From Halobacteriaceae archaeon Tc-Br11_E2g27 (GTDB lineage Archaea; Halobacteriota; Halobacteria; Halobacteriales; Haloarculaceae), in contig LKNH01000002.1 in the NCBI GenBank assembly GCA_001564135.1, positions 1 to 37,379 of the forward strand: a DNA stretch of 37,379 nt, read 5' to 3'. Position numbers and translations under genes: made by a program. Shown here piece after piece: positions 2,236 through 15,560 of this stretch (its first letter is position 1; each line of letters opens with the position of its first letter). Below the pieces are notes generated by a model. It was not told the origin of the DNA. It saw nothing but the letters and a program-made list of their open reading frames with translations, and did not search any database.

Positions 2236-2631
2236 TTAGTACTCCTCGACGTTAACAACGCGTTTCGTCTCTTCGTGAGTGAGGTCTCGGTCACTGGAGA
2301 CTACCGGCGCGTCAAGTTCACGACCGACCGCGGCAATCAATCCATCGGGTCCATCTAAATAGGGGCCAGATGGCTCGATTTCGTCCGCGATTCGTCCTGC
2401 AGTGACGGCTGTGTGCTCATCGACGGGATGAATGTCGATCCAGGCCAAATCCGCCCGGGCTCCGTCAACGTCCCCGCTCGGGAGGTTCCCTTCACCGATG
2501 AGTACCTCCGCGAGCGCTGGGACTGGAGCAACCCACCGGATCTCATCACCGCCGTGCTTTTCGTAAAACTTGCGAGTCGCCTCAACTCCGTCCAAGTAAT
2601 CGATCAGAAAGGTCGTATCGAGAACCTTCAT
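2236..2631 (-). CDS. vapC: VapC-type PIN-domain ribonuclease toxin
   Basis: A 131-residue protein, the usual size for VapC. The PIN-domain acidic residues are present: Asp5 in KVLDTTFLIDYL, Glu42 in ALAEVLIGE, Asp96 in DGPDGLIAA and Asp114 in VVSSDRDLTH. VapC toxins are Mg2+-dependent endoribonucleases that cut tRNA, rRNA or mRNA. The start codon overlaps the stop of the upstream antitoxin by 4 bp (ATGA type), the standard coupling of a TA operon. It lies in the accessory segment upstream of the hydrogenase locus, next to an IS remnant. Confidence 0.9.
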   Translation of the reverse strand: MKVLDTTFLIDYLDGVEATRKFYEKHGGDEIRWVAPVPALAEVLIGEGNLPSGDVDGARADLAWIDIHPVDEHTAVTAGRIADEIEPSGPYLDGPDGLIAAVGRELDAPVVSSDRDLTHEETKRVVNVEEY

Positions 2632-3763: not shown

Positions 3764-4350
3764 GTGTTTAAAGAAAATAACGAACATCAGCAGGAAAAGT
3801 TATTCTCGCCTGTAAAAGACCTCCCAGACGGCATAGATGAGAAATTACAGAATCACTAGTCTACTCACTTTTATCAACACATCTTTACCCAGATTGATGA
3901 AACGAAATTCGGACGGCTATACCATGATGGGTATAGCCGTCCGAACAAGCCCGTCAATGAGCTTGTTTCCTTGGAGATTATCAAACACCTGCTCGACCTC
4001 TCTGACGAAGAGCTTGAATACGCCTACATCTTCGATTTTCGCGTCAGAAACGCACTGGGGAAAGAAACACTCGGCGACAACATCTGTGAGAAGACATTCA
4101 CCAATTTCCGCCGCCGGTTGATGGAACACGAAGAAGAGACTGGTCAAGATCTGTTACACGAGGTTTTCGAAGATCACCGCAGCTATTTCCAAGAACAGTT
4201 TGACATCGATGCCAGTACCCAGCGGATGGATTCGACGTTCATTGAGGCTAATATCAAGCAACTGTCCCGTGTTGATCTCCTCGCCAAAGTTCTCCACAAC
4301 TTCCTGCTGGCATCGACGACTTCGTAGACACCGATAACCTAGAGCTCTCA
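3764..4350 (+). pseudogene. Decayed IS1182-like transposase (N-terminal part)
   Basis: Reading from a GTG at 3764, the frame encodes a transposase N-terminus of the IS1182/DUF772 type (SPVKDLPDGIDEKL, then QHIFTQIDETKFGRLYHDGYSRP, LEIIKHLLDLSDEELEYAYIFD, RVRNALGKETLGDN, RRRLMEHEEETGQDL, DSTFIEANI). An in-frame TAG at 3857-3859 interrupts it. After LAKVLHNFL (about 4305) the frame shifts; IDDFVDTDNLELSYQ continues in the next frame and then similarity is lost. Only about the first 190 codons of a full transposase of roughly 500 residues remain. No transposition activity is expected. It marks the left side of the hydrogenase locus. Confidence 0.8.
3908..3945. repeat. Perfect 16-bp palindrome inside the IS1182-like remnant
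   Basis: The 16 bases at 3908-3923 (TTCGGACGGCTATACC) are exactly reverse-complementary to 3930-3945, with a 6-base loop ATGATG. The element lies within codons for the transposase segment FGRLYHDGYSRP. Such a strong stem in a transposase 5' region could block translation from outside transcripts, a known control mode for some IS elements, or it could be a by-product of codon choice in a near-symmetric peptide. Confidence 0.8.
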
Positions 4351-4600: not shown

Positions 4601-5821
4601 ATGTCACAAACAGAAACACCAGAGAACGAAACATACGACTCTGACGGTCAGCGGGGCCCGTCAACATCCCGGCGGAACTTTCTACAACTTGCTGCAGGTG
4701 CGGCAGCCGGGACAGTCATTACACAGTATAGCACGGAGATTAGCGCAGCATTCGAACAAGTAACCAACGGGGAACTTGACGTCGTGTGGCTACAGGGCCA
4801 GGCCTGCACAGGCTGTACAATATCAGTTCTGCAAGGCCAGTATCCCTCGCTTGAAGAGGTATTGAGCGAGTTTCGGCTCGACGTCACATTCCACCCAACA
4901 ATCATGCCTGAAGCGGGTGAACCAGCCATTGAGGCGATGAGCGATGAGCCTGACGTACTCATTGTTGAAGGTTCCATCCCAATGGATATCCCAGAGGCGG
5001 CAACGGTTGGGACGACAGCGGATGGCGAGAGTAAACCCATGGTTGACTGGGTGATGGAGCTTGCTCCTGAGTCGGAATACGTCATTGCAGTAGGTAACTG
5101 TGCATCGTTCGGTGGGTGGCCCGCCGCAGAAAACAAACGGAATCTCCACGACCTCGGTGCAAATATCACCGGAGCCCGTGGTCTCCAGTTCGAAAAGCGG
5201 GAAGAAAGAGGGGTTCTTGGCCCTGATTTCACCTCGGGTGCAGACCTCCCCGTCATTAATTTGGCTGGCTGTCCAGTCCACCCGGATTACGTGCTCTTGA
5301 CGATTGCAACCGTGCTCAATGGGCATGTTCCAGAACTCGATGAGTATAACCGGCCGAAACCGTTTTACGAACCACTCGTTCACGACAACTGCCCGCTTCG
5401 TGGGTATTTCGACCGGGGCGAATTTGCCGAGAAGCCGGGAGACGAGGGCTGTCTAATTAAAACGGGGTGTGCTGGACCGTACACGTATTGTGATGACCAG
5501 AGTCGGCTGTGGAACGACGGAACAAGCGTCTGTCTGAATGTTGGTGCCCCATGTATCGGTTGCATGGAGCCCGGATTCTGGGATCGCTTTGCACCGCTGG
5601 ATGAAGAGATTGAGCGGCAATCCTTCTTTGGTCCTGTTACGGCCGAGCAAGCAGGATGGGCTGGGCTGGCTGCGGCTGGCGTCGGAATTGGTGCGCATGC
5701 CGTGCGAAAAGCAACTGGGTATGGGTCTTTCGGTGAAGATGGTGAGCAACCCACGTCTACGACTGATACGCAAGAATCGGCGGACGAACGTACCTCGGAT
5801 GAAGCGACGAAGGAGGAGTAA
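4601..5821 (+). CDS. hyaA: [NiFe]-hydrogenase small subunit, Tat-exported, group 1-like
   Basis: A 406-residue electron-transfer subunit. A Tat signal (S-R24-R25-N-F-L) and hydrophobic stretch show that the folded dimer is exported. Proximal [4Fe-4S] ligands are Cys69, Cys72, Cys167 and Cys224. Distal-cluster ligands are His261, Cys264, Cys284 and Cys290. Medial-cluster ligands are Cys297, Cys318 and Cys321, plus Cys311 where classical [3Fe-4S] enzymes have Pro, so a medial [4Fe-4S] is likely. The proximal motif is CTGC, without the extra Cys of O2-tolerant CTCC enzymes. Residues 350-370 form a weak hydrophobic helix like the membrane anchor of HyaA, followed by an acidic Ser/Thr-rich tail. 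It is first in the operon; a strong AAGGAGG near the end of the gene serves the large subunit. Group 1 membrane-bound uptake type is inferred from the Tat signal and the cytochrome b neighbour. Confidence 0.95.
   Translation: MSQTETPENETYDSDGQRGPSTSRRNFLQLAAGAAAGTVITQYSTEISAAFEQVTNGELDVVWLQGQACTGCTISVLQGQYPSLEEVLSEFRLDVTFHPTIMPEAGEPAIEAMSDEPDVLIVEGSIPMDIPEAATVGTTADGESKPMVDWVMELAPESEYVIAVGNCASFGGWPAAENKRNLHDLGANITGARGLQFEKREERGVLGPDFTSGADLPVINLAGCPVHPDYVLLTIATVLNGHVPELDEYNRPKPFYEPLVHDNCPLRGYFDRGEFAEKPGDEGCLIKTGCAGPYTYCDDQSRLWNDGTSVCLNVGAPCIGCMEPGFWDRFAPLDEEIERQSFFGPVTAEQAGWAGLAAAGVGIGAHAVRKATGYGSFGEDGEQPTSTTDTQESADERTSDEATKEE
5811..5818 (+). promoter_or_regulatory. Strong ribosome-binding site of the large-subunit gene
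   Basis: A GGAGG-type Shine-Dalgarno lies in the last codons of the small-subunit gene, about 6 bp before the ATG at 5824. It fixes the start of the large subunit and suggests translational coupling within the operon. Confidence 0.7.
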
Positions 5822-5823
5822 CT

Positions 5824-7392
5824 ATGGTAGAAATAACGATTGACCCAACGACACGAATCGAAGGACACCATGGAACAGTGCTGGAGGTTGAAGACGGTCA
5901 GGTCGTCGAAGCCAAAAGTCAGATGAAGATGTTTCGTGGAGCAGAGATTATCACGATTGGCCGACAGCCCAATGATGCTGCCCAACTTACCGGGATGGTC
6001 TGCGGCGTTTGCTTCCTCTGTCATCGACTTTGCTCATCAAAGGCGTCAGAAGATGCCGCAATGAACGCAGGCGTCTACGACGGGCCACCACGGAATGCGG
6101 TGTTGCTTCGTGATGCTGCAGAAGGGATTTTCTATTTGTGGAATCACGCAATCCATTTGTTTGCACTTGCCGGGCCGGATTACAGCGATGCCGTAGCTGA
6201 CACGGGATTCGACCGCATAGACCCACTTGAGGGTGACGGATATCAGAGTGCGTTGGCAAACCAGCGCAAATTAATGAAGGCGCTGACAGAGTTCGGTGGG
6301 CGAGCACCACACCCAGTGGGCTACATCCCAGGCGGGTTGGCGACGAAAGCGGATGCGTCGACAATCGAACAGGTGAAATCGAGAGTTCGTGAGGTAAGCG
6401 AGTGGCTTGGTCCAACGGATGCGATACCCGAAGTCCTTGAAAACGTCCAAAATGGTGAGTTTGACCCAACGCTCGGTGAGGGGCTTCACGATGTTGTATC
6501 AATCCTCGTTGGCGCTGCACAGATGGGCGCTGCCGAACTCGGAGAAGGTCCAAACCGGTTCTACAGTAACGGGATATTCGAGGACCCAGATACTGGCGAG
6601 TTGTTCCTGCCACGAGGTGTCTATCGGGACGGACAGGTAGAACTGATGGACAAAGAAGAGATTGTTGAGGGTATCACTGAGGATACAGAGTATTCCTGGT
6701 ACACCGACGAGTCAGCAGGAGCGCCAACCGAAGCGCCGCCGCCAGAGCCCGACCTAGACAAAGAAGATGCCTACTCATGGGGGAAAGCACCTCGGTTTGA
6801 CGGACAGTCGGTAGAAGTTGGCCCGTTGGCAAGGCTGGTCGTAGCGGACCTCGACCCGTTCGACCTTCGGGAAACACTCGGTGGTGGGAGTGCTGAAAGC
6901 AATACGCTTAATCGGCTGATTGCTCGGGCACAAGAGGTTGTCCTCGTTCGCGACCAAGTGCTCGAATGGCTTGACGCAATTGACCCCTCGGAACCGTTCG
7001 TCAACGACTTCCCGAAAGAGTTCACAGGTGAAGGCGTTGGATTGTTCGAACCCTCACGTGGCGCGTTGTCACACTATGTCGACATCGAAGATGGAATAAT
7101 CGAGCGATATCAGATTATCACCCCCACGTTATGGAATATCGGGCCACGAGATGGTGAGGGTCAACCGAGTATCATGGAAGAGGCAATCGTCGGTGACCCA
7201 GTCGATGATGTGGAAAATCCGCTTGACATTTTGCGAACGGTTCGCTCGTTCGACCCGTGTTTGGCTTGTGCAGTCCACGTCAGAAGCCCAGAAAGTGAGT
7301 ATGAAACAATAATCGAACCGGCACGGCCAGAGATGGCTGGCGCCGGCGCTTCCTGTGAAGTACGGGATTCCCCCATGATGGACGATGACTAA
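5824..7392 (+). CDS. hyaB: [NiFe]-hydrogenase large (catalytic) subunit
   Basis: A 522-residue subunit that carries the Ni-Fe(CN)2CO site and splits H2. Ni/Fe ligands are Cys60 and Cys63 in the L1 motif and Cys479 and Cys482 in the L2 motif DPCLACAVH. The proton-relay Glu13 (TRIEGHH), the canopy Asp in ALAGPDY and the Arg in PSRGALSH are present, as is YSWGKAPRF...EVGPLAR typical of group 1. Odd points: L1 reads GMVCGVCFLCHRLCSS, with Met58 where Arg is normally found and extra cysteines at 66 and 70; the canopy Pro is Ser. The C-terminal extension after His485 is 37 residues and is expected to be cleaved by the HyaD-type protease after Ni insertion. The stop overlaps the cytochrome b start by 8 bp. 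Export is by hitch-hiking with the small subunit. Confidence 0.95.
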   Translation: MVEITIDPTTRIEGHHGTVLEVEDGQVVEAKSQMKMFRGAEIITIGRQPNDAAQLTGMVCGVCFLCHRLCSSKASEDAAMNAGVYDGPPRNAVLLRDAAEGIFYLWNHAIHLFALAGPDYSDAVADTGFDRIDPLEGDGYQSALANQRKLMKALTEFGGRAPHPVGYIPGGLATKADASTIEQVKSRVREVSEWLGPTDAIPEVLENVQNGEFDPTLGEGLHDVVSILVGAAQMGAAELGEGPNRFYSNGIFEDPDTGELFLPRGVYRDGQVELMDKEEIVEGITEDTEYSWYTDESAGAPTEAPPPEPDLDKEDAYSWGKAPRFDGQSVEVGPLARLVVADLDPFDLRETLGGGSAESNTLNRLIARAQEVVLVRDQVLEWLDAIDPSEPFVNDFPKEFTGEGVGLFEPSRGALSHYVDIEDGIIERYQIITPTLWNIGPRDGEGQPSIMEEAIVGDPVDDVENPLDILRTVRSFDPCLACAVHVRSPESEYETIIEPARPEMAGAGASCEVRDSPMMDDD

Positions 7393-8326
7393 TCAGGAAC
7401 AAAAGCCAACGGAAGAGGTACGCTCCGATGGCGGGCAGCCAAAAGCAAAACGTGTCGTTAGTTCGGATGAGAGTGTCGGAGTAATCGAACGACTCCCAGG
7501 TGGGTCGTTCGTTGCCAACCTCTGGTGGTCGCTTGCATCTCGGTATGAGCCGTACGTAACGCTTGAGAAGGATAACAAAGAGTCAATCAAGCGCTGGGGC
7601 TATGGCTCGATTATCTCCCATTGGGTGCTAGTGTTCCTGATGGGAGTGGTTGCAGCCACAGGGTTTCTGTTCTGGACAGGGTGGTATGGACCCCTCAACA
7701 TCGGTATCTGGGATGGATACCAGGTATCGTTTTATCTCCATATTTATGGCGGCATAGTGCTGGCAGTGATCGCACTGCTAGTCTTCCCATTCTATCACAA
7801 ATTCGCTGATGGTCACAAACTCCTCGTATCACCCCGCCAGATTAAAGAGGAGATTATAGTCGCCCTCTCATTCCTCGGACTAGTGAAATACATCCCGGGA
7901 TACAAGCAAGCGCGTCGAGCCTATGATGAAGATGAAAAAGAGTGGGTCGGTTATCACCCAATGCAAACTGTCTTCTGGTACGTCACGTGGGGATTCGTTA
8001 TCATCCTCACGCTGACTGGGTTTGCACTGTGGGCTGCGCTGGCAACAGACCCTGCGTGGTGGGTATCGGCGCTTGGATTCATGGCGGGATGGACCACCTA
8101 TGAAACAATGTTGCGACTGCATCTCATCGCCACGTTTTGGGTACTCGCAGCGATTGCAATTCACGCATACTTCGCTGTGATGCCGGGTAATTGGGATGTG
8201 ATGAAGTCAATGGTTGTCGGCACAATCCCGGGCTGGCGGGTTGACGAAGAAACACGGCCCTCGCTTCCCACTGAGCGAAATGATTCGTCAATTGACTCAA
8301 CACCAGAGGAGCATGACCATGAGTGA
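7385..8326 (+). CDS. hyaC: Hydrogenase cytochrome b subunit (quinone-reducing membrane anchor)
   Basis: A 313-residue membrane protein of the cytochrome b561/HyaC type. Four hydrophobic helices lie at about residues 74-98, 113-138, 185-211 and 241-265. Candidate haem b ligands are His79 (IISHW), His119 (FYLHIYGG), His246 (LRLHLIA) and His260 (IAIHAYF). It would pass electrons from the small-subunit distal cluster to the membrane quinone, so H2 oxidation on the outer face is coupled to respiration. An N-terminal hydrophilic extension of about 60 residues and an acidic C-tail are additions relative to bacterial HyaC. It overlaps the large-subunit gene by 8 bp and is followed directly by the protease gene. 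Confidence 0.9.
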   Translation: MTNQEQKPTEEVRSDGGQPKAKRVVSSDESVGVIERLPGGSFVANLWWSLASRYEPYVTLEKDNKESIKRWGYGSIISHWVLVFLMGVVAATGFLFWTGWYGPLNIGIWDGYQVSFYLHIYGGIVLAVIALLVFPFYHKFADGHKLLVSPRQIKEEIIVALSFLGLVKYIPGYKQARRAYDEDEKEWVGYHPMQTVFWYVTWGFVIILTLTGFALWAALATDPAWWVSALGFMAGWTTYETMLRLHLIATFWVLAAIAIHAYFAVMPGNWDVMKSMVVGTIPGWRVDEETRPSLPTERNDSSIDSTPEEHDHE

Positions 8327-8924
8327 AAAACTGAATGCGGCCCCGACGCGTCCTGAGAGCGTAGTTGAAGCTGGAGCTGAGTTAGAAGCGAGAGTATCGG
8401 GGAACAGTGCGAATGCAGCGATTATCGGAATTGGAAACCGATTACTCCGAGATGATGGCGTCGGTCCACGTGTTATTGACGCGTTGGAAGAGTCACAAGA
8501 CCTGCCGGAAGGTGTTAGATTGTTCGATGCAGGGACGACTGGATTTTTAGCGCTTGAAGCGATGAGTGGCTGTGAGCGTGCAATCGTTGTTGATGCAATT
8601 CAAACTGGAAAAGAGCCAGGAACTGTTCAAGAGTATCGGTTCAAAGATGGAGAGTTCTCTGAAGAGATACCACAGATGACGATGCATGACATCTCGTTCA
8701 CGGAAGCACTCATCTATGCACGTGAGGTGTACGAACTGCCAACCGATGTCCGAATCATCGGTGTTGAACCTGAATCATTGAGTACTGGGCTTGAGCTCAC
8801 CACACCAGTCACAGCGGCTATCCCTGAAATTCTCGACCGTATCGCAAGCTATGAACCACTAATTGACCCTGAACAGCTAGCGGAATATCAAGTGAGACCC
8901 CCACAAATGGTGAAAGACAAATGA
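8319..8924 (+). CDS. hyaD: Hydrogenase maturation endopeptidase, HyaD/HybD family
   Basis: A 201-residue protein from the ATG at 8319, chosen because GAGG at 8306-8309 gives a 9-bp spacing; longer in-frame starts run into the cytochrome gene, and an ATG at 8313 is too close to the GAGG. The family features are visible: GIGN at 37-40, LLRDDGVG with Asp46 in place of the usual acidic Ni ligand, Asp92 (VVDAI) and His123 (MHDIS). These proteases sense bound Ni and cut the C-terminal extension of the large subunit after the L2 His. It starts within the last codons of the cytochrome gene (8-bp overlap) and overlaps the next small gene by 4 bp. There is an N-terminal extension of about 33 residues before the Rossmann-like core. 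Confidence 0.92.
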   Translation: MSEKLNAAPTRPESVVEAGAELEARVSGNSANAAIIGIGNRLLRDDGVGPRVIDALEESQDLPEGVRLFDAGTTGFLALEAMSGCERAIVVDAIQTGKEPGTVQEYRFKDGEFSEEIPQMTMHDISFTEALIYAREVYELPTDVRIIGVEPESLSTGLELTTPVTAAIPEILDRIASYEPLIDPEQLAEYQVRPPQMVKDK

Positions 8925-9103
8925 AATCAGTATGGTACTGTACAGAGTGTGAGGCACGGATTACCAGCGAGGAGATTGACCAACATGAGGAGGACGGCCA
9001 TCACGTCAGAGGGCAAATACAGCCTGATAGACTACTGGGGAATGACCCGCACAACGTGACCGTCCTGACACAGGACGAGTTGGACAACAAGGGAGGTGAG
9101 TGA
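8921..9103 (+). CDS. Small CxxC/HH zinc-finger-like protein in the hydrogenase operon
   Basis: A 60-residue protein with Cys7-x2-Cys10 (WYCTECEAR) and His22 and His27/His28 (DQHEEDGHHV), a C2H2-like spacing suited to one Zn ion. The second half (PDRLLGNDPHNVTVLTQDEL) is acidic and probably extended. Its start overlaps the protease stop as ATGA, and hypC follows 3 bp after its own stop, so it is clearly part of the operon. I know no classical hya/hyp component of this kind. It might chaperone Ni or Zn, bind the large-subunit precursor, or take the place of a HyaE/HyaF-type accessory. Function unknown. Confidence 0.75.
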   Translation: MKSVWYCTECEARITSEEIDQHEEDGHHVRGQIQPDRLLGNDPHNVTVLTQDELDNKGGE

Positions 9104-9106
9104 CTG

Positions 9107-9496
9107 ATGTGTCTCGGAATACCCGGTGAGATACTCTCGATTGATGGGCATACAGCGCGTGCAGAGTTCTGGAACGTTGAAAAGACCGTCCGGTTAGATA
9201 TCGTTGGCGAGACGGTGGAAAAAGGAGATTATATCCTGAATCACGCCGGATTTGCGATTCGAAAAATACCCGATGAGGAAGTAGAAGAGACGATTGCAAT
9301 TTATGAGTCATTCTTGGAAGGTGACGAAGATGAAGCACTTGAGGAAATTGGTGCAACGGACGCGACACTTGAATTTGGTGACCGTCCCTCTGCAGTGAAC
9401 AACAAAGACGCCACCCCAATAACCCCAGACCCAGGTGACCGACGGCAAGGACCGGACGCAGATGTTACAACAGAGGGGAACACAGATGGCAACTGA
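9107..9496 (+). CDS. hypC: Hydrogenase assembly chaperone HypC
   Basis: A 129-residue HypC/HybG-family chaperone. The essential N-terminal MCLGIPGEI is present with Cys2, and His46 lies in the conserved DYILNHAGFAI. HypC shuttles the Fe(CN)2CO unit from HypD to the large-subunit precursor. The start is fixed by the invariant Met-Cys and by GGGAGGTGA at about 9091-9099. HypC is normally 75-95 residues; here an acidic, disordered tail of about 40 residues follows, typical of halophilic proteins. It overlaps hypD by 11 bp. Confidence 0.95.
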   Translation: MCLGIPGEILSIDGHTARAEFWNVEKTVRLDIVGETVEKGDYILNHAGFAIRKIPDEEVEETIAIYESFLEGDEDEALEEIGATDATLEFGDRPSAVNNKDATPITPDPGDRRQGPDADVTTEGNTDGN

Positions 9497-10592
9497 GGCT
9501 CCCCTACAGTTTCGGGACCCGGACGCAGCAACGGAGCTTGCAGACCGTCTAGAGGAATTAATGAACGAAATCAGTGAGCCAGTGAATGTGATGCACGTCT
9601 GTGGCTCGCACGAACAGGCTATCGCAAAATTTGGACTGCGTAGTCTGCTTCCTGACGGTCTCTCCGTTCGGATGGGGCCCGGTTGTCCTGTTTGCGTAAC
9701 CAACATGCCAGAAGTCGATGAAGCAGTGTCACTGGCTGAGGACGGCGCGATTGTGGTAACGTATGGTGATATGTATCGCGTACCTGGAACCAGTAAAAGT
9801 CTCGCTGATGCAAGCGCCGAGGGTGCGGATGTCGAGATTATCTACTCCGTGAGTGAGGCCGTTGAGTTGGCTGAAGAACATCCAGAGCGCGAGGTGGTAT
9901 TCTTCGCGACTGGCTTTGAAACGACCGCTGCACCAACGGCTGCTGTCCTCGCTGCAGGAGTTCCAGATAACTTCTCGGTGCTATCAGCACACAAATATGT
10001 GCCACCTGCAATGGAAGTCGTTGCAGCCCTTCCCGAGACCGATATCGACGGGTTTCTCGCTGCAGGCCATGCCGCAACAATAACTGGCTACGAGTTGTTT
10101 GAGGATTTCGTCGACGAATACCAGATCCCGGTCGTTGTCGGTGGGTTCGAACCGCTTGACGTCTTACTCGGCATAGAACGGCTACTCGAACTAATCCGAG
10201 ACGAACGGGCTGGATTGGAAAACGCGTATCCACGGTGTGTGAGCGAAGAAGGGAATACCGCTGCCTTGGATATCCTGTGGGACGTATTCGAACCCACTGC
10301 AGGAGAGTGGCGAGGGATAGCGAACATCCCCGATGCGAATCTCATAATTCGCGAGCAGTATGCTGACTACGATGCCCGAAAGCGGTTTGATATCGAACCG
10401 GATACAGGTGCTGCTAACCCACTGACAGAGCAATGTCTCTGTGGCGACATAATGGCAGGAACAGCCGACCCTGATGAATGTGCGCTCTTTGGAGAGGAGT
10501 GTACACCCGCAAACCCTGTTGGTGCATGCATGGTAAGCAGTGAAGGAACTTGCAAAATCTGGCTCGAATATGGAGGGAGACCTGACCTTTGA
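9486..10592 (+). CDS. hypD: Hydrogenase maturation factor HypD
   Basis: A 368-residue Fe-S protein that, with HypC, scaffolds assembly of the Fe(CN)2CO moiety. The ATG at 9486 is chosen over upstream in-frame Mets because GAGGGG at 9473-9478 is well spaced and the length then matches the family. Key motifs are MHVCGSHE (Cys39, His42), GPGCPVC (Cys67, Cys70), FFATGFETTAAP, and the C-terminal [4Fe-4S] cysteines in EQCLCGDIM, GEECTP, GACMVSSEGTC. The stop precedes hypE by 1 bp. Confidence 0.95.
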   Translation: MATEAPLQFRDPDAATELADRLEELMNEISEPVNVMHVCGSHEQAIAKFGLRSLLPDGLSVRMGPGCPVCVTNMPEVDEAVSLAEDGAIVVTYGDMYRVPGTSKSLADASAEGADVEIIYSVSEAVELAEEHPEREVVFFATGFETTAAPTAAVLAAGVPDNFSVLSAHKYVPPAMEVVAALPETDIDGFLAAGHAATITGYELFEDFVDEYQIPVVVGGFEPLDVLLGIERLLELIRDERAGLENAYPRCVSEEGNTAALDILWDVFEPTAGEWRGIANIPDANLIIREQYADYDARKRFDIEPDTGAANPLTEQCLCGDIMAGTADPDECALFGEECTPANPVGACMVSSEGTCKIWLEYGGRPDL

Positions 10593-10593
10593 T

Positions 10594-11688
10594 ATGACCA
10601 CCAACAAACAAACATCGCAGAAAGACCACGAGACAGAAAGTCACCCAGAGGCAGATGAAGAGGTAATCACGCTTGCCCACGGCGCTGGTGGCGAAGCAAT
10701 GCGTTCTCTCGTGAACGAACTGGCTATCAACCGGTTTGAAGAGAACACACCGTCGTCAGAGGGAACTGTCGGCTTATCGGCGCTGGATGACGGTTCAGCC
10801 CATCCCCTTCCTAACAGCGACTCATCACTGGTCGTTACGACTGATAGCCACGTGGTGAGTCCGCCAGTGTTTCCCGGTGGTGATATCGGACGACTCTCAG
10901 TCGCAGGTACGGTCAACGACCTTGCGGTAATGGGTGTCACTGACCCTATCGCTCTCACCTGCTCTTTAGTGATCGAAGAGGGAACTCAAAGGGCACAGTT
11001 GGATGAGATAATGGAGTCAATGCGAGAGACCTGCAAAGAAGCGGGAGTGAGTATTACGACCGGCGATACGAAGGTGATGGGTCGTGGAGAACTCGATGGC
11101 CCGGTGATAAACACCACTGGTGTCGGCGTGGTCAGCACTGAGACGGTCGTTGCCGATGCTGGACTCTCACCAGGTGACGCGATCATTGTCTCGGGAACGG
11201 TTGGCGACCACGGCATTGCACTCCTAGCTGAGCGTGAGGGTTTCGATTTTGGCGACAACCTCAAAAGTGATGTTGCACCAGTCAATGACATTGTAAGAGC
11301 GGCAACCGATGCCGGACGAATAACCGCGATGAAAGATCCAACTCGCGGTGGATTGGCGACGACTCTGAACGAAATGGCAGAAAAAGCAAACGTCGGCATC
11401 GAAATCAAACAGGACGATATCCCAGTCAATGATGCAATTGCCTCAGCAGGGGAAATACTTGGAATCGACCCCCTTTCAGTCGCCAACGAAGGGAAAGTCG
11501 TCTTTGGGGTTGACCCAGACGACAAAGAGGCAGTTCTCAGTGCGATACGTGCTCATCAAGGCGGGGAGGAAGCAGCAATTATCGGAACGGTCACCGAAGA
11601 GCAGGCTTCTAGAGTTGTCTTGGACACTGGGTTTGGAAGACGCTATCTGAGTGAGCCGACCGGAGAGACGTTACCACGAATTTGTTGA
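10594..11688 (+). CDS. hypE: Carbamoyl dehydratase HypE
   Basis: A 364-residue PurM/AIR-synthase-like protein. HypE receives a carbamoyl group from HypF on its C-terminal Cys and dehydrates it with ATP to the thiocyanate that supplies CN ligands. The diagnostic C-terminus PRIC is present, as are LAHGAGGEAM at the N-terminus and DPTRGGLATTLNE. The ATG at 10594 is preferred because it directly follows the hypD stop; two longer in-frame Mets would overlap hypD. GGAGGGAG lies upstream but with a long spacing of about 14 bp. The first 30 residues are a charged halophilic extension. Confidence 0.94.
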   Translation: MTTNKQTSQKDHETESHPEADEEVITLAHGAGGEAMRSLVNELAINRFEENTPSSEGTVGLSALDDGSAHPLPNSDSSLVVTTDSHVVSPPVFPGGDIGRLSVAGTVNDLAVMGVTDPIALTCSLVIEEGTQRAQLDEIMESMRETCKEAGVSITTGDTKVMGRGELDGPVINTTGVGVVSTETVVADAGLSPGDAIIVSGTVGDHGIALLAEREGFDFGDNLKSDVAPVNDIVRAATDAGRITAMKDPTRGGLATTLNEMAEKANVGIEIKQDDIPVNDAIASAGEILGIDPLSVANEGKVVFGVDPDDKEAVLSAIRAHQGGEEAAIIGTVTEEQASRVVLDTGFGRRYLSEPTGETLPRIC

Positions 11689-11694
11689 AAAACC

Positions 11695-12150
11695 ATGCAT
11701 GAACTCAGTATCGCGATGGGAATCGTTAACCGCGCCCTCGAGACAGCCGAGGAACACGGTGCAGAGACAGTAACAGCGCTCACCGTGGAACTTGGGTCGG
11801 CAACGCACGTTAACCCAGCTCAACTCAAATTCTGTATTGAAACAGCCGCCAAGGAAACACCTGTGGCAGAGGCGGTCGTGACAATTGAAGAGGTGACACC
11901 ACTTGCCGAATGCGTTTGTGGCTGGGAGGGAACACCCGGAACTCTCGACCAGGCAATGGTGTATGCTCCAGATGTGACCTGCCCGGAATGCGGAGACCGG
12001 ACGACACTGATACGCGGACGTGAATGTCGACTTGCTACTGTCGAGTTACCAGACGAACAATCACATCAGAAATCTGCGCAGGAGACACCAGCCCCGACCC
12101 AGAACAAACCTCCAGAAGAGAAACGCCTGCTACAGGATAACAAATCATGA
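11695..12150 (+). CDS. hypA: Nickel-insertion metallochaperone HypA
   Basis: A 151-residue HypA. The Ni site at the N-terminus, Met1-His2-Glu3 (MHELSIAMGI), is intact. The Zn site has Cys73-x-Cys75 and Cys96-x2-Cys99 (CPECGDR); the first pair is CxC, where most HypA proteins have CxxC. It works with HypB to deliver Ni to the large subunit after Fe(CN)2CO insertion. The last 35 residues are a disordered Gln/Pro/Glu-rich tail. It overlaps hypB by 4 bp and starts 6 bp after hypE. Confidence 0.94.
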   Translation: MHELSIAMGIVNRALETAEEHGAETVTALTVELGSATHVNPAQLKFCIETAAKETPVAEAVVTIEEVTPLAECVCGWEGTPGTLDQAMVYAPDVTCPECGDRTTLIRGRECRLATVELPDEQSHQKSAQETPAPTQNKPPEEKRLLQDNKS

Positions 12151-12962
12151 TTCACCACGTCCAGAAGACTATTCCGAACCCGATGAACAGCACAAGAAAA
12201 ACACTCAAACGTATTGAGGACGCAGTCGGGCCAATCCGGTTACATCGGTTTGGACACGACCATGGGCATGCCCATGATGAGTCGGTAAGCGATGTCGAAG
12301 CTGACGTCCTCGCCGAAGTTCGAAAGCGGGCCGGAGAAATTCATGAACGGTTAGCTCACGAGCACGGCGTTTATTGCGTCGAGTTTGCCGGCTCAACCGG
12401 AGGTGGGAAAACCATGCTGATTGAGCGCTTACTTGAGCGTGCCTCCGAAGATGAGGTCATTGGCGCAGTTGTTGGAGATGTTGCCGGTGAAGATGACGCC
12501 AAACGCTTCCGAGCACATGGTATTCCAGTCGAAAACGTAAATACCGAAAAAGAATGCCATCTGGACCCGACGATGGTTTCAGAAGCGATTGAGTCGTTCG
12601 ATTTAGAAGAGCTCGATACCCTGTACCTCGAAAATGTCGGTAACATGGTCTGTCCAGCAGATTTCCCGCTCGGTGCTAACCGACGTGTTCTCGTAGTGAG
12701 TACAACAGAAGGCGACGATGTCATCAGAAAACATCCAATGTTGGTGCAGACAGCAGATATCGTGGCAATTAACAAAATTGACGTGGCCGAGGCAGTTGGC
12801 ACCGATGTTGACCGTATTTGTGATGATATCGAAGCAGTTGCTCCTGGCACACCGATTGTAGAAACAGATGCGAAAAACGATGTCGGGATTGACGAACTAG
12901 CCGCAGCACTTGAGCCTGATGGTACCCACGCCCACCACGGTGAGGCCCCTCATTCACACTAA
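12147..12962 (+). CDS. hypB: Hydrogenase nickel GTPase HypB
   Basis: A 271-residue GTPase. The P-loop is GSTGGGKT (82-89), the dimer metal site is Cys137-His138 (EKECHLDPTMV) with Cys169 (NMVCPADFP), and the guanine-specificity motif is NKID at about 209-212. His-rich segments at both ends (HRFGHDHGHAH near residue 33-43; HAHHGEAPHSH at the C-terminus) could store Ni. HypB hydrolyses GTP to drive Ni transfer with HypA. The ATG at 12147 overlaps the hypA stop; Met13 is an alternative start. It is the last gene of the first co-directional run. Confidence 0.94.
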   Translation: MIHHVQKTIPNPMNSTRKTLKRIEDAVGPIRLHRFGHDHGHAHDESVSDVEADVLAEVRKRAGEIHERLAHEHGVYCVEFAGSTGGGKTMLIERLLERASEDEVIGAVVGDVAGEDDAKRFRAHGIPVENVNTEKECHLDPTMVSEAIESFDLEELDTLYLENVGNMVCPADFPLGANRRVLVVSTTEGDDVIRKHPMLVQTADIVAINKIDVAEAVGTDVDRICDDIEAVAPGTPIVETDAKNDVGIDELAAALEPDGTHAHHGEAPHSH

Positions 12963-13011
12963 GACATAACATCCAATTTAGGCGAACAGTCCAATAGTGA
13001 CCCGTACGAGA

Positions 13012-13099
13012 ACTAATACTGCCGGATGTAACTTCGTAAACGTACTCGCCACGCCGGGGTGGCGAGATGGTTTAAATGCTTACGTCCGGTAGTATAAGT
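13012..13099. repeat. Large nested inverted-repeat structure between hypB and hypF
   Basis: A 20-base arm at 13012-13031 pairs with 13080-13099: 17 of 20 positions are Watson-Crick, two more would be G-U wobbles in RNA, and one is an A-A mismatch. Inside, TAAAC (13037-13041) pairs with GTTTA (13070-13074), and CTCGCCAC (13045-13052) pairs perfectly with GTGGCGAG (13059-13066) around a 6-base loop. The whole 88 bp could form one long interrupted hairpin. It overlaps the candidate hypF TATA element. It may be a transcript-end or regulatory RNA structure, or a miniature inverted-repeat insertion. Confidence 0.65.
13071..13078 (+). promoter_or_regulatory. Candidate TATA box of hypF
   Basis: TTTAAATG is centred about 27 bp upstream of position 13101. 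Transcription from there would give a leader of about 18 nt that contains AAAGGAGG (13106-13113) before the GTG start at 13119. This suggests hypF has its own promoter, separate from the hyaA-hypB run. Confidence 0.45.
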
Positions 13100-13118
13100 G
13101 TCCCCAAAGGAGGCAGAC

Positions 13119-15560
13119 GTGAATCAAACTAATACAACCCCAATTCGTGTCGAACTGACCGTGACCGGTGTGGTTCAAGCAGTTGGATTTCGACCGTTTG
13201 TCTACCGACGGGCAACAGCCCATGGGCTTGGTGGATCAGTCAAGAACACAGGCGATGCCGGGGTTGAAATCGTTTTGAAGGGTGACTCAACGGCTGTTGA
13301 TGCGTTTCTTGAGGAGCTCCAAGAGAGCCCTCCACCCCTGTCCGTTGTGGAATCGGTAGATATTATTCGGCGTGAGCCACTTTCGGAGACGACAAATCAA
13401 CAACAGGACAAATCGCGTCAGTTTACGATAGCCCAGTCCACTACAGATGAGAGTGGCTCTGGAACGATTCCACCTGACACTGGAATCTGTCAGGCGTGTC
13501 TTGAGGACGTTCGCGATACTGATTCGCGATATCACAACTACTGGGCAACTTCCTGTGTTGATTGTGGACCGAGATATACCGTGATTGAATCACTACCATA
13601 TGACCGCCCGCAGACGACAATGGAGCCGTTCTCCTTGTGTGATGACTGCCAAGAGGAATATACTGACCCCCAAGATAGACGATATCACGCCCAAACGATT
13701 GCCTGCCCTGCGTGTGGACCGGAGCTGTCGCTTTTAAACCGTGACCGGGAGACACGTGCGAAGGGGCATGATGCAATTACTGAGGCGACTCACCGGCTTC
13801 GAAATGGCGATATCGTTGCAATTCGGGGCATCGGCGGAACACACTTAGCTTGTTTAGCAACCAACCAAGCAGCGGTCCAAACGCTACGGAATCGCACAAC
13901 CCGACCTGGAAAACCGTTTGCCCTCATGGCCGAATCGACTGAGGTAATCGAGCAATTCGCCCGAGTCACTGAGAAAGAGCAGGCATTGCTCACTGACGTT
14001 CGGCGACCAATTGTCGCACTAGAAAGACTGACTGACCCTAAAAACGAATTCGAATGGCTAGATGCAGTGGCGCCCGGCCTCCACACTGTTGGAGTGATGC
14101 TCCCCTATGCAGGATTACACCATTTGCTGTTTGATGATATATCGAGCCCACTCGTAATGACGAGTGCAAATCACCCGGGAAAACCAATGGCAACCACCGT
14201 TGCTGACATTTATGACGATGTCGGCAACGTGATTGATGCTGCTCTGGCACATGATAGACGTATCGCCGCCCGATGTGATGACAGTGTTGTGCGCGTCGTC
14301 GATGGAACACGCCGGTTTCTCCGACGGTCTCGAGGCTGGGTGCCAAAACCATTGCCACGTCATGTTGACGGGCCGCCACTCCTCGCATTCGGCGCGGAGT
14401 TTGACAACACGATTGCCATTGCTCGTGATGACGAAGTAGTACTCTCACAGCACCTCGGTGATATCGATGGGCCTGAAACAGAGGCGTTTCTTAGGGCAAC
14501 TCAGACACATCTCACCGAACTCTTAGGTGTTTCACCTGCGGTCGTCGCCTGTGACCGCCACCCACAGTTTGTCACTTCAGCGCTAGCCGAATCGTACGCA
14601 GACCGTCTCATAGACGAGACAGGAGCCAGTAAGCAGACAGAACCAGTTCGGGTTCAACATCACCACGCCCATGCAGCAGGGTTGCTTGGTGAACATAACA
14701 AGGAGCGTGCAATCGTTATAACGATCGATGGGACAGGATATGGTCCAGATGGAACAATCTGGGGAGGCGAAATACTGGACGCCACAAGAGAGAGTTTCGA
14801 ACGAGTTGGCGGACTCAGTGAATTTACTCTCCCGGGCGGAGAGGCAGCTGTCCGAGAACCAACGCGCATCCTTGCAAGTTTGTTAGATAACCGCTCTGAA
14901 ATTCTTCGTTTGCTTTCGACCCAGACTGCCCTTTCAACCGACGAAGCCGACACCGTGTACGAGAGTGCGAAAGCAGGTGTAAATGCCCCGGTGACGACCA
15001 GTGCGGGGAGATATCTCGATGCTGTGAGCGCCTTACTTGGCATTTGCACAGAGCGAACGTATCAAGGAGAACCAGCACTCCGGCTTGAGTCACGGGCAAG
15101 TAAAGCGGAATCGGTCCCTTTCAGTCACGGGTTCAGCCCTGACTGCGATGATGTTCGTAAGATGGTAACTGCGGGAACAAGCGAACTAACTGTCCCATAC
15201 ACCGAGCGTGAAGGGAAACCAGTTATCGATACACCTCGACTGGTGAACAAACTAAACGAACTCCGTGACGCTCATTCAACCGAAACGCTCGCTGCAACCG
15301 CACAGATGGCACTTGCCGAAGGGTTAGCTATTCTTGCAATCGAAATGGCGACTAGAAGAAATGTTTCAGAGATTGGCATCAGTGGCGGTGTGACATACAA
15401 TGACGCCATTTCACAGCGAATTCGAGAACTAGTCGAAGCGACCGACTGCCGATTCCTTGCACCAACGCTGGTTCCTCCCGGTGATGCAGGGATATCGTAT
15501 GGACAAGCGATTGTTGCGAGTGAGCTGTCGACACACAAGGCTAGCCACTCGGGCTCCTGA
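13119..15560 (+). CDS. hypF: Carbamoyltransferase HypF
   Basis: A protein of 813 residues from the GTG at 13119, chosen because AAAGGAGG at 13106-13113 precedes it; a GTG at 13098 would add 7 residues. Domains in order are acylphosphatase-like (GVVQAVGFRPFVYR, about 17-30), two zinc-finger repeats (CQACLEDVRD from residue 124, CVDCGPRYT, CDDCQEEY, CPACGPEL to about 205), a YrdC-like nucleotide-binding domain (IRGIGGTHLACLATN) and a Kae1-like carbamoyltransferase domain with the metal-binding HHHAHAAG near residue 514-519 and GISGGV near the end. HypF uses carbamoyl phosphate and ATP to carbamoylate the HypE C-terminal Cys, supplying the CN ligands. It completes the Hyp set. It converges on the minus-strand gene 15591-16370. 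Confidence 0.95.
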   Translation: MNQTNTTPIRVELTVTGVVQAVGFRPFVYRRATAHGLGGSVKNTGDAGVEIVLKGDSTAVDAFLEELQESPPPLSVVESVDIIRREPLSETTNQQQDKSRQFTIAQSTTDESGSGTIPPDTGICQACLEDVRDTDSRYHNYWATSCVDCGPRYTVIESLPYDRPQTTMEPFSLCDDCQEEYTDPQDRRYHAQTIACPACGPELSLLNRDRETRAKGHDAITEATHRLRNGDIVAIRGIGGTHLACLATNQAAVQTLRNRTTRPGKPFALMAESTEVIEQFARVTEKEQALLTDVRRPIVALERLTDPKNEFEWLDAVAPGLHTVGVMLPYAGLHHLLFDDISSPLVMTSANHPGKPMATTVADIYDDVGNVIDAALAHDRRIAARCDDSVVRVVDGTRRFLRRSRGWVPKPLPRHVDGPPLLAFGAEFDNTIAIARDDEVVLSQHLGDIDGPETEAFLRATQTHLTELLGVSPAVVACDRHPQFVTSALAESYADRLIDETGASKQTEPVRVQHHHAHAAGLLGEHNKERAIVITIDGTGYGPDGTIWGGEILDATRESFERVGGLSEFTLPGGEAAVREPTRILASLLDNRSEILRLLSTQTALSTDEADTVYESAKAGVNAPVTTSAGRYLDAVSALLGICTERTYQGEPALRLESRASKAESVPFSHGFSPDCDDVRKMVTAGTSELTVPYTEREGKPVIDTPRLVNKLNELRDAHSTETLAATAQMALAEGLAILAIEMATRRNVSEIGISGGVTYNDAISQRIRELVEATDCRFLAPTLVPPGDAGISYGQAIVASELSTHKASHSGS

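Follow-up and report, generated by a model that had tools for sequence, protein, structure and literature searches.

The hydrogenase HydAB of Natrarchaeobaculum sulfurireducens AArc1 is encoded by the solitary hydrogenase gene set of this strain, which is located on plasmid pAArc1-02, and AArc1 grows anaerobically on H2 with sulfur or DMSO (PMC6176080). Strain AArc-Mg also grows on H2, the AArc strains made no aerobic use of it, and the haloarchaeal homologues have been assigned to group 1a of the [NiFe] hydrogenases (PMC6176080). Of two Halodesulfurarchaeum strains, HTSR1 uses H2 and HSR6 has a hydrogenase cluster yet does not use H2 (PMC5437934). The standard motif by which catalytic [NiFe] subunits are recognised, R-x-C-G-x-C-x3-H, begins with an Arg of the L1 stretch; no study of this Arg itself was found in the openly accessible literature.

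The hydrogenase locus and its L1 stretch

The window, i.e. the whole stretch of 37,379 nucleotides that was analysed, comes from Halobacteriaceae archaeon Tc-Br11_E2g27 and contains the following features, all on the forward strand:

4601-5821 (+): hydA, small subunit with the Tat motif SRRNFLQLAAG, proximal Cys69, 72, 167 and 224, and medial Cys297, 311, 318 and 321
5824-7392 (+): hydB, [NiFe] large subunit of 522 aa, a single open frame matching PF00374
5992-6033 (+): HydB L1 stretch with Gly57, Met58, Cys60, Cys63, Cys66, His67 and Cys70 (reading and alignment)
6112-6114 (+): HydB Asp97, Asn in 24 of 25 Arg58-bearing relatives
6142-6144 (+): HydB Asn107, aligned with the canopy Asp (Asp123 in D. 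vulgaris, Asp103 in Hyd-2)
6301-6312 (+): HydB Arg160 and His163; Lys160 in all 25 Arg58-bearing relatives, His163 equivalent to His229 of Hyd-5
7054-7059 (+): HydB canopy Ser411-Arg412, within PSRGAL (reading and alignment)
7258-7278 (+): HydB C-terminal CLACAVH with Cys479 and Cys482, processing site at His485
7385-8326 (+): hydC, membrane cytochrome b (PF01292, 41.9 bits, cut-off 30.1)
8319-8924 (+): hydD, maturation protease (TIGR00072)
9107-15560 (+): hypC, hypD, hypE, hypA, hypB and hypF, with the gene order of pAArc1-02

HydA, the cytochrome b, the protease and the hyp genes are all intact, and a three-cluster small subunit predicted to be Tat-exported, a cytochrome b and a protease are the components of a group 1 respiratory uptake enzyme. 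The cluster ligands of HydA are presumably those listed, as assigned from alignment and family knowledge; Cys311, which we take to be the fourth medial Cys, stands where enzymes having a three-iron medial cluster carry Pro. Group 1a hydrogenases have a four-Cys medial cluster, as HydA presumably does. Its proximal motifs, CTGC and NCASFGG, include no supernumerary Cys, and assignment to the oxygen-tolerant membrane-bound type was rejected because HydA lacks the six-Cys [4Fe-3S] proximal cluster.

Between hydD and hypC a small protein with a CxxC followed by a His cluster is encoded (8921-9103, +), and the similar-sized AArc1_RS00985 is found at the same place in pAArc1-02. Just upstream of hydA lies a transposase remnant (3837-4327, +; PF05598), and a PIN-domain protein encoded at 2236-2631 (-) is a possible toxin of a toxin-antitoxin pair.

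The L1 stretch of HydB reads AAQLTGMVCGVCFLCHRLCSSKAS, that is T-G-M-V, Cys60, G-V, Cys63, F-L, Cys66, His67, R-L and Cys70. The codons lie at 5992-5994 (Gly57), 5995-5997 (Met58, ATG), 6001-6003 (Cys60), 6010-6012 (Cys63), 6019-6021 (Cys66) and 6031-6033 (Cys70), with Ser411 at 7054-7056. As a sequence-only reading of this DNA had claimed, Met58 stands in place of the usual Arg, and the remainder of R-x-C-G-x-C-x3-H fits. HydB also departs from G-x4-P-R-G-x3-H, with Ser-Arg-Gly instead, as does the D. desulfuricans enzyme 1e3d, and it scores 376 bits against NF033181 (nickel-dependent hydrogenase large subunit), under the curated cut-off of 600. The two CxxC pairs of group 1 large subunits (Cys60/63 and Cys479/482) and the N-terminal Glu13 are all retained, in agreement with the earlier reading, and a C-terminal extension of 37 residues follows His485. 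Because the PF00374 match of 276.7 bits places full-length homology beyond doubt, HydB is filed, on its sequence, as a variant of the group 1 [NiFe] large-subunit family despite the missed motif.

Distribution and descent of the Arg58 loss

Homologues were collected from the class and the phylum (394 genomes each), from entire families surrounding the window and three additional centres, and from named genome contigs and plasmids, and 40 distinct haloarchaeal large subunits were comparable. Of these, 10 keep Arg58; the other 30 lack it, 22 having Met in its place, 7 Lys and 1 Thr. Arg58 is also kept in all non-haloarchaeal sequences read, which comprise other archaea, 12 bacterial plasmid enzymes and the PDB chains with displayed alignments, and in the enzyme of archaeon 128-326 (L075), which is 53% identical to HydB. 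The Met58/Cys66/Cys70 triplet is present in 11 distinct haloarchaeal proteins, two complete plasmids included, and was found in all sampled members of the genus Halodesulfurarchaeum. Met58 is clade-fixed, a point that the sequence-only reading had proposed to check. A sequencing error at Met58, which that reading had left open, was rejected because the trait is shared by independent genomes and by complete plasmids. Selenocysteine, considered for homologues L009, L013 and L028 owing to a TGA flagged in the matched stretch, was likewise rejected, as the C-terminal Cys pair already precedes the first stop. The alignment thus identifies the loss of Arg58 as an inherited lineage trait of most haloarchaeal enzymes.

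In a tree made without the L1 columns, the Arg58-bearing haloarchaeal clade is sister to one Met58-bearing clade (support 90/87), which implies two losses or one loss and one regain; a single clade of all Arg58-less proteins was not rejected by the AU test (p 0.25). The window genome belongs to the same genus as G304, G118 and G370 (the enzymes L067, L074 and L058 match named Halovenus records). The enzyme of the window has its nearest relatives in Natrialbaceae and on plasmid pAArc1-02, and the types present in other Halovenus species are different, which suggests horizontal transfer of the hydrogenase island.

Several homologues differ in other respects. L016 and L017 (1501-3117 and upstream) carry Asn at position 163, where the proximal-cluster His was supposed to be invariant. 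In their small subunits a low-complexity, Arg/Ser-rich tail has taken the place of the Cys motifs for the medial and distal clusters; both enzymes are likely to be degenerate or repurposed hydrogenases. The small subunits of L018 and L075 have Asp at the second proximal-cluster Cys (Cys72 in the window), reading CSGD and CTAD. The proximal site of Arg58-type haloarchaeal small subunits (L019-L025, L063, L069) reads CxAC, and in most of them another Cys stands two residues beyond the third proximal ligand (GTCACYGG). In the Met58 'CLGC' clade (L024, L026-L030, L061, L068) the small subunits show no recognisable Tat-type RRxF motif, and these enzymes may be cytoplasmic.

The positions of Cys66, directly before His67, and Cys70 had been given correctly, but neither is extra, as both residues occur in other family members. 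Relatives show V, T, S, A, D, N, I or C at position 66; among the 40 haloarchaeal proteins, 27 have Cys there and 3 have Ser, and the 10 that bear Arg58 all have Val. Cys70 is restricted among haloarchaeal proteins to the clade of the window (12 proteins) and one Natronomonas protein, and is present in Roseovarius, Mesorhizobium and Streptomyces enzymes. The canopy Ser of PSRGAL is indeed there but is not unusual: Ser411 is universal in haloarchaeal large subunits (40 of 40), and the solved D. desulfuricans 1e3d, reading ADVSRGGL, shares it. Both Cys66 and Cys70 are regarded as small side chains that these positions tolerate, with no part in redox chemistry.

Second-shell changes and their interpretation

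In the 25 Arg58-bearing rows of the alignment 92 columns are near-invariant, and the 27 Arg58-less rows depart from just three of them, 58, 97 and 160. Asn97 is replaced by Asp in 25 of these 27 rows and Lys160 by Arg in 26, and the Arg58-bearing haloarchaeal clade retains both Asn97 and Lys160 in 10 of 10. The coupling is not strict, as one protein type combines Met58 with Lys160 and four combine it with Asn97. With Arg58 present, position 160 of bacterial plasmid enzymes is Gln in Mesorhizobium, Roseovarius and Sulfobacillus and Arg in Streptomyces.

Arg160 lies three residues ahead of His163, and the equivalent His229 of Hyd-5 points at the proximal cluster (PMC3940037). Gly57 aligns with Glu73 of Salmonella Hyd-5, a position near His229 and the proximal cluster that is mostly Gln in oxygen-sensitive enzymes (PMC3940037, PMC6981441); the Parabacteroides enzyme likewise has Gly. 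At the position of the canopy Asp (PMC3325256, PMC10430524) all haloarchaeal rows have Asn107, and Ser is present in several further sequences, among them the D. vulgaris Hys chain. An AlphaFold model built from 21 sequences has a mean pLDDT of 65, with values below 50 at residues 51-59 and 159-165, which makes it unreliable around positions 58 and 160.

It is proposed that the product of hydABC is a respiratory uptake [NiFe] hydrogenase of the haloarchaeal group 1a cluster, exported by the Tat pathway and anchored in the membrane. H2 would be split at the Ni-Fe site (Cys60, 63, 479 and 482, Glu13, Arg412), and electrons would reach cytochrome b and quinone by way of the proximal, medial and distal clusters, probably in anaerobic respiration. 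The loss of Arg58 would be a tolerated second-shell change accompanied by Asn97 to Asp and Lys160 to Arg, in which Arg160, close to the proximal-cluster His163, may supply the charge or the hydrogen bonds otherwise provided by Arg58. Arg160 and Asp97 would then perhaps replace Arg58 and compensate its loss. A more specific and only tentative version is that haloarchaea moved the near-universal second-shell Arg of [NiFe] hydrogenases from L1 to the FGG(K/R)xPH loop, with the new Asp97 as its anchor, and retuned the proximal cluster via His163 while keeping H2 oxidation.

It is possible, if rather doubtful, that Arg58 simply became dispensable in haloarchaea, for instance through high salt or an altered subunit interface, and that positions 58, 66, 70, 97 and 160 drifted neutrally with no compensating relation. 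Met, Lys and Thr all occur at 58 and both 97 and 160 show exceptions, which fits drift, as does the small number of independent events; with one or two tree events only, the co-occurrence is not independent and the joint change at 58, 97 and 160 is not amenable to statistics. However, the loss of just these 3 of 92 otherwise near-invariant columns argues against drift, and so does the uniform Asn97 and Lys160 of the haloarchaeal clade that keeps Arg58. That the enzyme is inactive or repurposed is scarcely credible. Several otherwise conserved residues are altered (57, 58, 97, 107, 160, 411) and HSR6 fails on H2 despite its cluster, but the metal ligands, Glu13, Arg412, His163 and the full accessory operon are retained, and the AArc strains and HTSR1 oxidise H2. 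AArc1 and AArc-Mg have an identical L1 motif, D97, R160 and operon. The H2 growth of AArc1, whose 85%-identical enzyme is its only one, and the H2 use of HTSR1, for which Met58/Cys66/Cys70 is known here at genus level, make an Arg-less L1 compatible with activity and support the earlier view that the enzyme is probably active.

It is highly improbable that Cys66 and Cys70 tune the response to oxygen next to the Ni-Fe site in the manner of an oxygen-tolerant enzyme. R. eutropha HoxG and the 3ayx enzyme, reading ERICGVCTGCHALAS in their solved structures, also have Cys at position 66, but oxygen-tolerant Hyd-1 has Val (CTGVH) and oxygen-tolerant Hyd-5 has Thr (CTGTH), and the AArc strains did not use H2 aerobically (PMC6176080). 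Because the proximal cluster has ordinary four-Cys ligation and not the six-Cys oxygen-tolerant type, Cys66 and Cys70 give no reason to expect oxygen tolerance and appear ordinary in that respect. The window probably encodes a functional respiratory uptake [NiFe] hydrogenase with ordinary clusters and a rewired second shell, in which Arg160 and Asp97 perhaps replace Arg58.

Comparison with known hydrogenases

The enzyme belongs to a known kind and represents a genuine, inherited variant of it; its cysteine part is ordinary, and the missing Arg with its two companion changes is the part worth keeping. Motif filters would discard Arg58-less enzymes, since the standard motif requires the L1 Arg. 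A natural active Arg-less enzyme beside Arg-keeping sisters offers a ready test of the role of this Arg and shows which partners change with it.

HydAB of AArc1 (WP_117362508) resembles the window enzyme in its 85% identity, its L1 stretch GMVCGVCFLCHRLCSS, D97, R160, PSRG and operon order, and differs in being plasmid-borne with iron ABC transporter genes upstream, where the window has the transposase remnant. The Arg58-bearing haloarchaeal enzymes of Halonotius, Haloplanus and Halovenus aranensis share the class-wide Asn107 and Ser411, but at about 58% identity they have QRVCGVCFxVH, Asn97, Lys160 and a small-subunit CxAC proximal motif. The best solved-structure matches are group 1a [NiFe]/[NiFeSe] hydrogenases such as D. 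vulgaris Hys, which unlike the window enzyme keep Q-R-I-C; the canopy Asp is replaced by Ser in Hys, and the window enzyme has Cys instead of Sec. Oxygen-tolerant R. eutropha HoxGK, E. coli Hyd-1 and Salmonella Hyd-5 likewise possess the His229 equivalent, and HoxG shares the Cys-His step of Cys66-His67, but all three keep E-R-I-C and have the six-Cys proximal cluster that is absent from the window.
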